A stretch of 37,041 bases of DNA from Thermodesulfobacteriota bacterium (lineage in GTDB: Bacteria > Desulfobacterota > Dissulfuribacteria > Dissulfuribacterales > QOAL01). The stretch is taken from assembly GCA_013154175.1 (NCBI GenBank), contig JAADCZ010000061.1, positions 1-37,041 on the forward strand, read 5' to 3'. The first letter of the stretch is position 1. Each line of letters starts with the position of its first letter. The position numbers and the translations under genes were made by a program. Below the pieces are notes generated by a model. It was not told the origin of the DNA. It did not search any database and saw only the letters and a list, made by a program, of their open reading frames with translations. Below, in pieces: positions 2,679 through 32,536 of the stretch.

Positions 2679-4793
2679 ATGAAAAAGACAGTATGGAGCA
2701 TGTGTGGAATGTGTTCCGTCAGATGCCCCATCAAGGTGGAGGTTGAAGATGGGGAAGTCACCTGGATCGAAGGCAATCCACACATACTGAAAGGGAGTCT
2801 TTGTGCCAAGGGCTCAGCTGGCGTTGCCCTTCATAAGGATCATGAAAGGCCGCAGCAACCACTCATACGAAGTGGTGGTAGGGGTGCCGGCAAGTGGGAG
2901 CCCGTCAGCTGGTACACAGCTTTAGATTACGTAGCCGAAAAAATAGAGAAAATCAAGGACAAATATGGTGCCAAGGCCTTGGTTATGAGCTGTAGGGGAG
3001 GGCCATGGCAAGATCTCGTAAAGGCATTTTGTCATGCCCTTGGTTCTCCCAATTTCACCAACCACGACAGCGCCTGTGGAAGGAACGTGCACCATGCCAG
3101 TAAGTCCGTTTATGGACTCGGCAGAAAAGGCTTCATCTATGACATAGCCAATGCCAAACACCTAATCTGCTTTGGCAGGAATTTGCTTGCATCCCTGAGG
3201 GTTGCCGAGGCAAACCAGGTCATGGACATGCTGGATAACGGAGGTAGCCTCACCTACGTGGATGTGCGCCAGACACTGACTGGTATCAAGGCTACCAGGT
3301 TTTTCCAGGTGCGTCCTGGCACGGACTATGCCCTTGCCCTGGGAATCATAAATGAAGTCATCAAGCAAGAGGCCTACGACAAGGAATTTGTCGAAAAATA
3401 TACCATTGGCTTTGACAAGATGGCCGAATTCGTGGAGCCCTACACAGCCGACTGGGCAGCCAAGGAATGCGGCATCAAGGTCAAAAAGCTGAAGGACTTC
3501 GTGACTGAGATAGGTGGGCAAAGGCCAAAGGTCATTTTTCATCCTGGCTGGATGCTGTCCAGATATAAGGATTCCTTCTATGCAAGCCGCTGCCTCCACA
3601 TCCTGAATGTCCTCATGGGCAATATCGAGGTAGAGGGCGGTCAGCAGTTTCCAAAAGGTCCTGGCGACTGTGGCGTAAAGGGCCTCAGAACCTTCAGTTC
3701 CAACGTACCCACACCTCAGGACAAGCGTGCCGACGGTGTAGGCTGGAAATATAAACACTTCGATAAGGGTCCTGGCCTGTTTCATCTGTTTTATGAGGCA
3801 ATGATGACTGGTGAGCCCTATCCAATAAAGGGCCTTATCTGTTACAGGCACGATCCATTTAGCTGTTTCCCAGATGTGAGGACCCAGAAAGAGGCTCTGG
3901 ACAATTGTGAGCTCCTAGTTTCCATTGACACCCACTACAGCGAATTTGGCTGGTACTGTGACGTCATACTGCCAGAGTCCATGTATCTTGAGCGCGAAAC
4001 CCCAATTGCAACCCAGAAGGGGTTGAAGCCAAGGTTCATCTACAGGGACAGGGCAGTTGAGCCCAAGTTCAACACAAAGCCATCTTGGGAAATCTTCAAG
4101 ATGCTGGCCGACAGGCTGGGATTTGGAGAAATGTTCCCATTCCAGACCGCAGAGGACATTTGGAAATGGCAGCTGGAGCCTACTGGTTACACAATTGATG
4201 ACTTCCAGGAAAAGGGCTTTGTTTCCCTTACAGACGAGCCCATCATGTACGATAGGGACAACCTGGAAGGAAAATTCAAGACCGAATCGGGCAAGATTGA
4301 AATTATCAATGAATCTTGGGAAAAGCTTGGAATTCCATCCTTCAAGCCCTACGAATCCCCCAAGAAACCGCCAAAGGGAAGGTTCAGACTGGTATTTGGA
4401 CGAAGCCCTGTACATGCCCACAGCCATACCATCAATAACCCGTTCCTCCATGAATTGATGCCTGAGAACAGTTTGTGGATAAACAAACGAATCGCAACGA
4501 GGCTGGGTATTTCAGAAGGAGACTGGGTGGATGTAATTGGTGACAGCCAGATAGGAACCGTCCGCGCCCATGTCACAGAGTTTATCCATCCCGAGGCGGT
4601 TTATACAGTGCATGGCTTTGGTAGACAGGTTCCCCTCCAGAGTAGGGCCTATCATGCAGGCATGAGTGACCAGAAGCTTCAGGAAGGCCTGCTGCTCATG
4701 ATGGACGAGGCAGGCGGTGGTCTCTGTCTGTGTGAGAAGTTTGTTACTGTCCGCCGTAGCTCCAGGAATCCAAGAAGGAGGGTAGAACTGTGA
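2679..4793 (+). CDS. Molybdopterin (MGD) oxidoreductase catalytic subunit, PhsA/PsrA-like, no Tat signal
   Basis: 704 aa DMSO-reductase superfamily subunit. The N-terminal [4Fe-4S] motif is Cys9, Cys12, Cys16 and Cys42, followed by the CAKG lysine typical of electron transfer to the pterin. The candidate Mo/W ligand is Cys133 in NHDSACGRNVHH. A molydopterin dinucleotide-binding domain fills the C-terminal 120 residues (VFGRSPVHAHSHT to VHGFGRQVP). The protein begins directly at the Fe-S domain with no twin-arginine leader, so it should be cytoplasmic, unlike typical periplasmic Phs/Psr/Ttr enzymes. The ferredoxin gene overlaps its stop by 4 nt, and no membrane-anchor subunit gene follows. Reduction or oxidation of a sulfur compound is the best guess; the substrate cannot be read from sequence. 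Confidence 0.85.
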   Translation: MKKTVWSMCGMCSVRCPIKVEVEDGEVTWIEGNPHILKGSLCAKGSAGVALHKDHERPQQPLIRSGGRGAGKWEPVSWYTALDYVAEKIEKIKDKYGAKALVMSCRGGPWQDLVKAFCHALGSPNFTNHDSACGRNVHHASKSVYGLGRKGFIYDIANAKHLICFGRNLLASLRVAEANQVMDMLDNGGSLTYVDVRQTLTGIKATRFFQVRPGTDYALALGIINEVIKQEAYDKEFVEKYTIGFDKMAEFVEPYTADWAAKECGIKVKKLKDFVTEIGGQRPKVIFHPGWMLSRYKDSFYASRCLHILNVLMGNIEVEGGQQFPKGPGDCGVKGLRTFSSNVPTPQDKRADGVGWKYKHFDKGPGLFHLFYEAMMTGEPYPIKGLICYRHDPFSCFPDVRTQKEALDNCELLVSIDTHYSEFGWYCDVILPESMYLERETPIATQKGLKPRFIYRDRAVEPKFNTKPSWEIFKMLADRLGFGEMFPFQTAEDIWKWQLEPTGYTIDDFQEKGFVSLTDEPIMYDRDNLEGKFKTESGKIEIINESWEKLGIPSFKPYESPKKPPKGRFRLVFGRSPVHAHSHTINNPFLHELMPENSLWINKRIATRLGISEGDWVDVIGDSQIGTVRAHVTEFIHPEAVYTVHGFGRQVPLQSRAYHAGMSDQKLQEGLLLMMDEAGGGLCLCEKFVTVRRSSRNPRRRVEL

Positions 4794-29080: not shown

Positions 29081-29707
29081 ATGGATTTCATACCGGATTT
29101 TATAAGGGATTTTTTGGACTGGCTGATGATAGCTGTGTTTACACCGCTATTTTCAGCTATTGGCCATTTTTTACAGACGATAATCATATCCCCTTTGGAT
29201 GCCCTGGGAGCGCCCCTCTGGCTTCAGGTTGCCTTGGTTGCCCTGATGACAGCGGGTATCTCCATCTTCATCAGAAAACTTCTGAGGGTCGATGAAAAGG
29301 AAGCCGAATTTCAGCGTGCCTTTATGGAACGCAAGCAGGCCCAAGAACTCATAAAGGAAATAGACGACTGGAAAAAGCAGTCGGTACTATATGATGCGAG
29401 TGATCAGGAGCTCGATGAAAGGTTCAATGATTATCTTGCCCAACGTTTTGCCAGGTATGGACTCACCTACCTAATGCCCGTGTTCTTTGCTCTATTCTGG
29501 CTGGATCACATTCCTGCCGTGATGCGTCTGAAGGAAGAGACGGGTGCTGTTTTCGTCATAACCTTCCCTGGCCAGATAAAGGGCGTAAGCGGCATCTCCC
29601 TTCCCCTTCTCTTCATGACAGTGTATCTCCTGGCAATTTTTAGTTATTTCAAATTTAGGCCGAAAAGAGAAATAGAGGCCCCCACCAGCGATTTGGAAGC
29701 CAAATAA
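29081..29707 (+). CDS. Membrane protein resembling the YidC/Oxa1-superfamily DUF106 (EMC3/TMCO1-like) group
   Basis: 208 aa. Predicted layout: membrane segments at about 12-36 and 46-66, a long charged helix (70-122, KEAEFQRAFMERKQAQELIKE split over helices), then membrane segments about 127-143 and 170-192. The order of a hydrophobic helix, a cytoplasmic helical hairpin and two further helices (RYGLTYLMPVFFALFWL) is that of DUF106 proteins, best known from archaea, which belong to the Oxa1 insertase superfamily. The match is by pattern only. The start has no strong Shine-Dalgarno. It is followed by the long rex leader. Confidence 0.6.
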   Translation: MDFIPDFIRDFLDWLMIAVFTPLFSAIGHFLQTIIISPLDALGAPLWLQVALVALMTAGISIFIRKLLRVDEKEAEFQRAFMERKQAQELIKEIDDWKKQSVLYDASDQELDERFNDYLAQRFARYGLTYLMPVFFALFWLDHIPAVMRLKEETGAVFVITFPGQIKGVSGISLPLLFMTVYLLAIFSYFKFRPKREIEAPTSDLEAK

Positions 29708-29734
29708 GCCTTTGGTTAAATTTATGTTGCAATA

Positions 29735-29754
29735 GTGCAATATTTTTGTTGCAC
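29735..29754. promoter_or_regulatory. Palindrome GTGCAA-N8-TTGCAC (copy 1, upstream of rex)
   Basis: GTGCAA (29735-29740) and TTGCAC (29749-29754) form a perfect 6-bp inverted repeat around 8 nt. A third half-site, TTGCA at 29728-29732, forms an overlapping TTGCA-N4-TGCAA palindrome. There is no T-tract after it, so it does not look like a terminator for the preceding gene. Confidence 0.55.
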
Positions 29755-29914
29755 CTCCACTTAAAGAAAAAAAATACAAATTCTCTTCTTTGTCTTTTAT
29801 ATCACAACTTAGTTAATTCTCTGAAATCACAAGTGAATTAGTTTGGGCGCTTATAGTAAGCGGTTTATCCAAAAGCGTCAAAAAAACGTGAAAAAAACCG
29901 CAATCGGGCCTTTT

Positions 29915-29934
29915 CTGCAACCTTTTTGTTGCGA
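29915..29934. promoter_or_regulatory. Palindrome CTGCAA-N8-TTGCGA (copy 2, abutting rex promoter)
   Basis: Core GCAAC-N6-GTTGC is perfect, with the same 20-bp architecture as the other two copies. It ends 3 nt before the predicted rex -35 box (29938), so a bound protein would contact RNA polymerase. Confidence 0.5.
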
Positions 29935-29937
29935 TTT

Positions 29938-29965
29938 TTGACTCTTTAGCATGTGAAAAAATAAT
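29938..29965 (+). promoter_or_regulatory. rex: Predicted rex promoter
   Basis: TTGACT (29938-29943), 16-nt spacer, AATAAT (29960-29965). This predicts a leader of about 95 nt that contains the ATTGCAGATATTT direct repeats. Confidence 0.5.
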
Positions 29966-29997
29966 GTTAAAGTGAGTGAAAAATGTAACAATGTGAA

Positions 29998-30040
29998 ATT
30001 GCAGATATTTTTTCAGGGGGCATATTTATTGCAGATATTT
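29998..30040 (+). repeat. Direct repeat ATTGCAGATATTT in the rex leader
   Basis: Two identical 13-bp copies at 29998-30010 and 30028-30040, 30 bp apart start to start, which is about three helical turns. They lie downstream of the predicted transcription start and just before the rex ribosome site. Confidence 0.7.
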
Positions 30041-30069
30041 GTGGCAATCAAATTAAAGTGGAGGTAAAG

Positions 30070-30813
30070 ATGAGAAAAGAAAAAATCCCGGCCGCTACTA
30101 TAATCCGGTTATCGGTTTATCAGCGGTACCTCAAGAGGTTATTGGCCAAAGGTGTGAAGGTTGTGTCGTCTAGCGAACTTGCATACGAGGCAAATGTAAA
30201 TCCTGCCCAGCTGAGAAAAGATTTGTCCTATTTTGGTAGATTTGGAGTAAGAGGGGTAGGCTACGACGTAGCCTCTTTATTAAATACAATTTCTGGTATA
30301 TTGGGTCTGTTGGATGAATGGAGAGTGGTACTCGTTGGGGCCGGCCCAATTGGTCAGGCACTGTTGAGGCATCCCCAGTTTTCGAGACAAGGCTATGTAT
30401 TTGAGGCGGTATTCGACTTTGATCCTACTCATATCGGTCGTGAGCTAGAGGGCGGTTTGGTAGTTCAAGACCTCAGGAATCTTCCTCGCGTGATTCAGGA
30501 AAAGGATATCCAGCTGGCTGTTCTGGCGGTTCCCTCTGAAAAGGCCCAGGAGATTGCGGACTTGCTCGTTGATTGCGGAATCAAGGGAATTCTCAATTTC
30601 TGTACCACTAGGATTAGGGTGCCTAGGGGCGTGAGTGTCCAATATGTTGATTTTACAATACTTTTGGACACGCTGACCTACAAGATTTCCCAAAGCAACA
30701 CGGAAGGTATGGACGAGCATGTTAAGGCAGGCAAGCCAAAATGGGCGCGCGAGCACAGCTGGCCCGTCGTGCAGTCCAATGTTCAAAAGCAGGGTGTTAC
30801 TTTAACAAGTTAG
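30070..30813 (+). CDS. rex: Redox-sensing transcriptional repressor Rex
   Basis: 247 aa. ATG 30070 is preferred because GGAGG lies 5 nt upstream; GTG 30058 would add four residues. N-terminal winged helix (PAATIIRLSVYQRYLKRLL, VNPAQLRKDLSYFG), Rossmann NAD(H)-binding motif VLVGAGPIGQALL, and conserved FDFDPTHIG and LNFCTTRIRVP segments. Family role: it senses the NADH/NAD+ ratio and represses fermentation, respiration and sulfate-reduction genes. Length is slightly above the usual 210-220 aa because of a C-terminal tail of about 30 residues. A palindrome touches its stop codon and the TauE/SafE gene follows after 46 nt. Confidence 0.95.
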   Translation: MRKEKIPAATIIRLSVYQRYLKRLLAKGVKVVSSSELAYEANVNPAQLRKDLSYFGRFGVRGVGYDVASLLNTISGILGLLDEWRVVLVGAGPIGQALLRHPQFSRQGYVFEAVFDFDPTHIGRELEGGLVVQDLRNLPRVIQEKDIQLAVLAVPSEKAQEIADLLVDCGIKGILNFCTTRIRVPRGVSVQYVDFTILLDTLTYKISQSNTEGMDEHVKAGKPKWAREHSWPVVQSNVQKQGVTLTS

Positions 30814-30832
30814 TGCAACAAAAAAGTTGCAC
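30813..30832. promoter_or_regulatory. Palindrome GTGCAA-N8-TTGCAC (copy 3, between rex and the transporter)
   Basis: GTGCAAC (30813-30819) and GTTGCAC (30826-30832) form a perfect 7-bp inverted repeat around AAAAAA, starting on the last base of the rex stop codon and ending 27 nt before the transporter ATG. Same arm sequence and same spacing as copy 1. It lacks a T-tract on the plus strand, so it is not a standard terminator. Confidence 0.6.
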
Positions 30833-30859: not shown

Positions 30860-32536
30860 ATGAAGAAGAAGATTTTTGGTCAGGTCTTTTTGGTTTTCTT
30901 GACTTTGGTCTTTGCTGTGTCATCGGCATGGGCCATAGAGGCTAGCCTTGTGTCAGACAGTGTCAAGGCAGGCAAGCCCATTACCGTCAAGGGAAAGATA
31001 GACCCAGGTCAGGACATTTACATTGTGGTCTGCACAGACAAGATGTTCAAGCCAGCCGACGCCCCTGGCTCAAAGGAAAGGTCAAAGCTCACCAAAAAGT
31101 TTGGTGATACCGCCATTCCGCCTACCTATTACATCATAACGAACAAGCCCAATGATTTCGCCACACCCAAAAGTGTTGCTAAGGGTCAGACAACTGGTCC
31201 ATTTGCCTTCCCGCCCTTCAAGTTCATGGTGCGCGTCAACAAGATCAAACAGTGGAGCGAGATTCCTGAGACTGCCAAAACCATGCTCGGGCCAGTCAGC
31301 ACAGAGGCTCAGTGGAAGTTCTTGATTTACACCCATGAGAAAAAATTCGGTATCAACACCGTTTCAAAGGAAAGGCCCATTGGTGGCGGAAACGCCAGGA
31401 TGGTCATGACCGATTATGAAACCCAGAAGGAAGACTGGAACAAGGGGGTTACGCTCAAGCTGAACAAGGAAACCGGCGAATTTGAAATGACAATGACGCC
31501 ATACAAGAACCTTGCCCCCCACACCAAGATGTCTGTCTATGTAAACGGGCAGAAGACTGGTGGATTCACCATTATTCCTTCCACCTTCTACTTCCCAACA
31601 GCATGCTGCTACATGAACCCACTCATCGTTCTGTTGGGTGCATTCATCATTGGTGTGCTCTTTGTTATCATGGGTGCTGCAGGTGGTCTTTTCACTGCTG
31701 CATACCAGATTACAGTTATTGGAACCAAGGGCCCAATCGGTATCAATGCTGCTAACACCATTAAGCCCACAAACTTGTTCCTTACACTGTGTTCTCCAAT
31801 CACCGGTCTGATCTCCTACTTCAAGGCCAAGAGGTTCGCATGGCCAGTGGCTATTTTCTTTGCCCTGGGAATTCTGATTGGTGCCTTCTTCATTGGACCA
31901 ACGTTTTCCGCAAAGTATCTGCCACTCAAGGCTTACAAGTTCTATCTGGGTATCATCTGTTTGCTCATTGGATTTAAGCTCTTCCATGAATCCTTGCCCA
32001 GCACCATCGAGAAGAAAAAGGCCCTCAAGGCAATTGTTCAGAAGTTCAACAAGGCTGTTGAAGAGGCAAAGAGAACAGGCAAGGCAGCCGAGCTTGGAAA
32101 GGTCGAGTTTGACAAGTTCAACTTCATCAAGTTTGACATGAGATTCTGGGGTGAGACCTTTGTCGCACGTCCTCTCACAATGCTCATTGGTGGTATCATC
32201 ATGGGTATGATCGCATCCTCCTTTGGAGTTGGCGGTGGCTTCATGTTCATGCCCTTCATGACAACCTTCATGGGTTATCCAATGTATCTGGCCGTTCCAA
32301 TCGCTCTGGCCGGTACATTTGCAACTTCATGCGGTGGTATCGCCAAGTACATCCTCATGGGATATCAGCCCGACTGGATAATGGCTGCATGTATTGCCGG
32401 TGGTGCTATCGGCGGCGGTATGGTTGGTCCTAGGATTCAGAAGAAGCTGCCCGAAATCTTCCTGAAGAGAATGCTTGCCTTGGCACTCATTATCGTCTTC
32501 ATGAAGTACACCAAGCTGTTGCCATTCATGAGATAG
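30860..32536 (+). CDS. TauE/SafE family sulfur-anion transporter with N-terminal exported domain
   Basis: 558 aa. ATG 30860 has AGAGGAG upstream and begins a clean signal peptide (MKKKIFGQVFLVFLTLVF, cleaved near AWA). Residues about 25-240 are a beta-rich periplasmic domain (VKGKIDPGQDIYIVVCTDK, YVNGQKTGGFTIIPST); residues 250-558 are the TauE/SafE permease with two inverted halves (GAAGGLFTAAYQ, SSFGVGGGFMFMP), split by a cytoplasmic Lys/Glu-rich loop (390-430). The family exports sulfite, sulfoacetate or related anions. The extra domain is absent from ordinary members of about 250-300 aa. Its position next to rex and a shared palindrome suggest redox-linked control. Confidence 0.85.
   Translation: MKKKIFGQVFLVFLTLVFAVSSAWAIEASLVSDSVKAGKPITVKGKIDPGQDIYIVVCTDKMFKPADAPGSKERSKLTKKFGDTAIPPTYYIITNKPNDFATPKSVAKGQTTGPFAFPPFKFMVRVNKIKQWSEIPETAKTMLGPVSTEAQWKFLIYTHEKKFGINTVSKERPIGGGNARMVMTDYETQKEDWNKGVTLKLNKETGEFEMTMTPYKNLAPHTKMSVYVNGQKTGGFTIIPSTFYFPTACCYMNPLIVLLGAFIIGVLFVIMGAAGGLFTAAYQITVIGTKGPIGINAANTIKPTNLFLTLCSPITGLISYFKAKRFAWPVAIFFALGILIGAFFIGPTFSAKYLPLKAYKFYLGIICLLIGFKLFHESLPSTIEKKKALKAIVQKFNKAVEEAKRTGKAAELGKVEFDKFNFIKFDMRFWGETFVARPLTMLIGGIIMGMIASSFGVGGGFMFMPFMTTFMGYPMYLAVPIALAGTFATSCGGIAKYILMGYQPDWIMAACIAGGAIGGGMVGPRIQKKLPEIFLKRMLALALIIVFMKYTKLLPFMR

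Follow-up and report, generated by a model that had tools for sequence, protein, structure and literature searches.

The window, i.e. the whole stretch of 37,041 nucleotides that was analysed, carries a rex gene followed by a tauE-family transporter gene. The rex gene (30070-30813, + strand; start placed at 30070 by alignment, TAG stop codon at 30811-30813) encodes a NADH-sensing repressor of 247 amino acids, which scored above the cut-off of the NCBIfam Rex equivalog and contains the Pfam domains PF06971 (winged HTH) and PF02629 (NADH-binding). The tauE gene (30860-32536, + strand) encodes 558 amino acids, with a signal-peptide/extracytoplasmic N-terminus and the Pfam TauE/SafE domain (PF01925) in the C-terminal half. 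Three palindromes, to which no strand was assigned, surround rex: site 1 (UAS1, distal and enhancer-like; 29735-29754, GTGCAATATTTTTGTTGCAC, core TGCAAT-N6-GTTGCA at 29736-29753), site 2 (UAS2, proximal and enhancer-like; 29915-29934, CTGCAACCTTTTTGTTGCGA, core TGCAAC-N6-GTTGCG at 29916-29933) and, between rex and tauE, site 3 (UAS3; 30813-30832, GTGCAACAAAAAAGTTGCAC, core TGCAAC-N6-GTTGCA at 30814-30831). A putative sigma-54 promoter, with the -24/-12 element GGGGCATATTTATTGCAG at 30017-30034 (+ strand; GG at 30019-30020, GC at 30031-30032), lies between site 2 and rex. The genome also contains a second rex paralog (G000:C126:14595-15332), which is 67 % identical to the first and is likewise followed by tauE. 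Upstream of the sites, positions 29081-29707 encode a membrane protein of 208 amino acids with no Pfam or NCBIfam match; a membrane protein gene of similar size directly follows tauE in G009, G022, G027 and G030, and this protein is probably a functional partner of the tauE product.

The original prediction described three palindromes sharing the arms GTGCAA-N8-TTGCAC. Sites 1 and 3 match this pattern exactly (0.00 expected from 100 dinucleotide shuffles), and no other exact match exists in the 2.33-Mb genome, genome-wide scans being pattern searches; site 2 departs from it by three mismatches in arm positions. The core TGCAAC-N6-GTTGCA is a better shared description of all three sites: with one mismatch allowed, it occurs three times in the window, i.e. 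at the three sites, against 0.10 expected, and none of the 100 shuffles reached three. Site 3 had been placed on the rex stop codon, which is accurate, the overlap consisting of the last base of the stop. A half-site reported next to site 1 is also present (TTGCAA, 29727-29732), but it is unconserved in the genus alignment and the cooperative role suggested for it is unsupported. Elsewhere in the genus, one-mismatch matches to the core are scattered and, among the matches listed, mostly devoid of an A/T-rich spacer; therefore, no further regulon targets are claimed, and a larger regulon built from such sites was dropped.

Conservation was assessed on an alignment of nine rex loci of the same type (rex1-type) from two genera, scored as mean pairwise identity, the deposited relatives being Deltaproteobacteria MAGs. 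The sites stand at about -335, about -155 and 2-3 bp past the last sense codon of rex in rex1-type loci of relatives, and the place of site 1, about -335 of rex, is kept in all nine. The arms are conserved in these orthologous loci, with identities of 0.81 for site 1 and 0.94 for site 2 compared with 0.46 for the remaining intergenic region. Site 3 is kept in all nine rex1-type loci across the two genera and absent from rex2-type loci; the second rex locus of the genome carries a pair of these sites, one near -356 and one near -168. Every perfect core match in same-genus genomes falls at a rex-tauE locus. Among 395 genomes of the phylum, six have a perfect palindrome followed by the promoter within 70-100 bp, in each case at a rex(-tauE) locus of this order, and the reversed-pattern control returned none. 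The palindromes of the G022, G027 and G033 loci carry two mismatches, and tandem sites 19 bp apart occur in several loci.

Upstream of the operon, a GG-N10-GC element is present (GGCATATTTATTGC, GGCAT-N5-TTGC, 30019-30032). Its occurrence in the window carries no significance by itself, 0.55 matches being expected by chance, and the promoter claim is therefore based on conservation: GGCAY-N5-TTGC stands ~50 bp upstream of rex in 9/9 loci with a core identity of 0.96, and a strict or near-strict -24/-12 element was found upstream of rex in every genus and family locus examined. In the g5 genomes (G012, G015 and G017), strict sigma-54 criteria missed the promoter and a looser scan gave TTGGCTTAATCTTTGCA or ATGGCGTGCCCCTTGCA. 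The distance from palindrome centre to the -24 GG is 94 bp for site 2 and 274 bp for site 1. Relatives mostly show distances of 93-96 or 102-106 bp between the centre and the -24 GG downstream of it, i.e. two clusters one helical turn apart, with R of 0.77-0.80 at periods 10.5 and 10 (n = 26). Sites 1 and 2 and the putative promoter have together the layout of sigma-54, NtrC-type enhancers. In enterobacteria, NtrC enhancers of the glnA type comprise a palindrome pair located ~100-150 bp and further upstream of the -24/-12 element, with TGC-type half-sites (TGCACC with N5); here the half-site is TGCAAC with N6, the target genes differ and so, presumably, does the signal. The -35 box that had been read behind site 2 was not retained, the corresponding sigma-70-like sequence (TTGACT-16-AATAAT, 29938-29965) being a chance-level match with alignment columns conserved below background (0.14 and 0.26 vs 0.46). 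IHF-site matches in the stretch from UAS2 to the promoter were no better than in shuffles, and such a site was likewise rejected.

As to the protein acting on these sites, the original prediction offered two possibilities, i.e. Rex itself, autoregulating through a divergent operator, or a different regulator with joint control of rex and the transporter. According to the first, Rex would bind the palindromes and repress its own operon at low NADH. Rex proteins of other bacteria commonly control their own gene. In genomes having both rex and the sites, the gene is mostly flanked by them, and this genome has sites at each of its two rex paralogs. As in described Rex regulons, a bona fide Rex is encoded here; the difference is that the canonical operator TTGTGAA-N4-TTCACAA, from which the palindromes differ in spacing, was found at neither rex locus with up to two mismatches allowed. 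Genome-wide, exact matches to this operator are lacking, and those with two mismatches number 13, little if anything above the 7 of the reversed control, none of the 13 being at the rex loci.

Co-occurrence was then examined in a set of 61 genomes, palindromes being counted with up to two mismatches. A palindrome at rex or tauE was found in 28/28 genomes with an ortholog of one response regulator (RR), six of which have no detectable Rex (G010, G012, G013, G015, G017 and G025; palindrome in 6/6). In G010, G012, G015, G017 and G025 the palindrome is contiguous with tauE, and in G013 it lies beside the RR gene, the contig ending after it and tauE beginning another contig. More generally, the tauE ortholog is placed after rex or, where rex is missing, directly after the palindrome. 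The seven Rex-containing genomes without RR ortholog have no palindrome (0/7), their best upstream match showing 4-5 mismatches. The presence of the operator is thus associated with the RR ortholog (Fisher p = 1.5e-7, uncorrected for phylogeny) and does not follow that of Rex.

The arms of the operator also covary with the recognition helix of the RR across the phylum (Glu with TGCAAC, Gly with TGCATC, Arg with TGCCAC). Helices of the form E/D/K-RQ (G-x-E-R-Q) pair with TGCAAC at 15 loci, and those of the form G-x-G-R-(Q/P) with TGCATC in 7/7; the two groups differ with a Fisher value of 5.9e-6, uncorrected for phylogeny, and the Gly/TGCATC group, belonging mainly to one lineage, may therefore represent few independent events. 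The Arg pairing comes from a single locus (L299 of G305), where the RR helix is R-R-Q and the end of the RR gene adjoins a tandem TGCCAC-N6-GTGGCA with rex directly downstream. Such covariation would not be produced by a repressor unrelated to the RR, and it therefore speaks for the RR as the binder. Given that the palindrome persists without Rex, is absent without the RR and covaries with the RR helix, we regard autoregulation by Rex as very unlikely. The second possibility is the one supported, and co-occurrence and covariation allow the other regulator to be named, as a prediction, as an NtrC-family sigma-54 RR.

The RR ortholog of this genome (P0004) is G000:C171:3339-4772, with 64 % identity to the G009 protein, compared with 43 % for the next-best paralog. 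It contains a receiver domain (PF00072), a sigma-54 AAA+ domain (PF00158) with the sequence KGAFTGA and a Fis-type HTH_8 domain (PF02954); several sigma-54 activators with GAFTGA are encoded in this genome. G009, G022, G027, G030 and G034 have the RR gene immediately before the palindrome, promoter, rex and tauE. In G020, the palindrome comes after this gene where the contig ends, and rex-tauE is found on another contig that opens with the same promoter sequence. In the genus studied here, the RR gene adjoins guaB and is unlinked to rex-tauE, so that its link to the operon rests on orthology. A histidine kinase (HK) and a small companion membrane protein precede the RR in G022 and G030, and a kinase homolog with a similar companion gene is located on G000:C164. 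Loci of the Desulfobulbales type lack rex and have a sigma-54 promoter and tauE enclosed by HK and RR; in loci of this type without adjacent RR, neither palindrome nor promoter was found upstream of tauE.

We are highly confident, on the basis of these sequence comparisons, that the palindromes are enhancers for a sigma-54-dependent NtrC-family RR with a Fis-type HTH, which would activate rex-tauE from the promoter at 30017-30034. In the proposed circuit, a membrane histidine kinase (PAS-HisKA-HATPase, with its small companion membrane protein) would phosphorylate the RR, dimers of which would occupy the TGCAAC-N6-GTTGCA sites near -95 and -275 relative to the promoter. Looping of the DNA would then carry the AAA+ GAFTGA ring to the sigma-54 RNA polymerase, and rex and tauE would be co-transcribed. 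The ancestral unit appears to be kinase-RR-enhancer-promoter-tauE, to which rex would have been added later, coming under the control of the activator. The signal is probably a sulfur compound. At one further locus (L308 of G343), HK, RR, palindrome and sigma-54 promoter precede a molybdoenzyme-like gene standing in tauE's place, whose predicted product carries a cysteine motif after a Tat-like signal and seems to resemble molybdenum sulfur oxidoreductases; this gene, taken with tauE, suggests a sulfur compound as signal.

A broader reading is put forward tentatively, our confidence in it falling a little short of even. A sulfur-responsive two-component sigma-54 regulon would have taken up rex, such that the levels of the NADH sensor and of the sulfur-anion transporter would be set jointly by an extracytoplasmic signal. 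A single residue of the RR recognition helix, being E, G or R, would determine the variable base of the operator, amounting to a readable specificity code of the Fis-type HTH, and site 3 would act within the operon as a downstream enhancer.

No sigma-54 element follows site 3 within the 27-bp gap to tauE, and the standard sigma-54 model does not account for the site. Most likely it binds the same RR from downstream, and our preferred interpretation is a downstream enhancer for the rex promoter, the main alternative being an mRNA hairpin. Extended to the other repeats, that alternative would make them RNA elements acting in termination, processing or stability, at least in the case of site 3. 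A stem of 6-8 bp is possible at each repeat, and site 3 falls exactly in the rex-tauE gap, a position kept in the nine loci. However, no U-tract follows site 3, folding energies are unremarkable (z of -1.3, -2.2 and 0.1), no Rfam match was obtained and the arms hold one consensus with N6 spacing rather than showing compensatory changes. In addition, sites 1 and 2 are upstream of the inferred promoter and so would not be transcribed from it. We thus consider RNA elements highly improbable. The scattered one-mismatch matches elsewhere in the genome would fit palindromes that arose by chance, or that are a dispersed or terminator-like element of this genome, but this explanation is left with a negligible probability by arm conservation far above background and by the confinement of perfect cores to rex-tauE loci in all same-genus genomes.

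The predicted enhancer system of rex-tauE can be compared with those of Desulfovibrio vulgaris, which has 37 sigma-54 activators and nine sigma-54 operons encoding transporters of the TSUP or PSE family (Kazakov et al. 2015, PMC4641369). The sigma-54-dependent RRs of this species are of the NtrC family with a Fis-type HTH and have mostly palindromic sites with 4-6 bp arms and 3-8 bp spacers, and its sigma-54 two-component regulons are small, i.e. one to four operons (PMC4641369; Rajeev et al. 2011, PMC3333781). The likeness extends to RR family, HTH type, palindromic sites and TSUP/PSE transporter operons; unlike the D. vulgaris systems, rex is here inserted between promoter and transporter gene, and the rex-tauE operon is duplicated. 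TauE, Rex and TGCAAC are absent from the main text of the D. vulgaris regulome paper (PMC4641369), and a literature search restricted to open-licence papers retrieved none that substantively connected sigma-54 with Rex. Systems of this class are already known, and sigma-54 control of rex is the part for which no precedent was found in the open-licence literature. In D. vulgaris, loss of rex raises nitrate resistance, as does loss of the TauE-like gene DVU0251 (PMC4001038), and a functional link between rex and TauE is therefore not far-fetched.

A self-regulating Rex with a new operator is thereby replaced by a testable circuit in which a two-component system and sigma-54 would set rex expression in uncultured Desulfobacterota. 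An orphan regulator gains a predicted target set and operator, and the helix and operator variants offer a natural series for testing how NtrC-family proteins read DNA. The locus also calls for caution, as an operator should not be credited to a regulator gene merely because it adjoins it.

Several minor observations were made. The gene for a PhsA-like molybdopterin oxidoreductase (2679-4793) is preceded, at a distance of ~117 bp, by a Rex-operator-like sequence (TTGTGAAAAGAATAACAA, two mismatches; 2545-2562 of the window). G003 has a comparable site with two mismatches at the same distance, G002 and G006 have weaker counterparts and G001 and G005 have none; it is possible that the site in the window is a real Rex target. 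In Desulfobulbus rhabdoformis (L225, position 1090), a perfect palindrome (GTGCAACTCTATTGTTGCAC) precedes a tandem pair of tauE genes, ~980 bp from the first of them. The tauE gene following rex is split into two ORFs in two families (L156 5288-6984 in G023; L155 1956-3677 in G024), each ORF of G023 carrying half of the TauE domain. Finally, a run of ORFs at positions 37-1893 of L155 (G024) is built from the repeating peptides FQSTPPRGGR / FNPRPHAGGD and has the appearance of a translated CRISPR-type repeat array.
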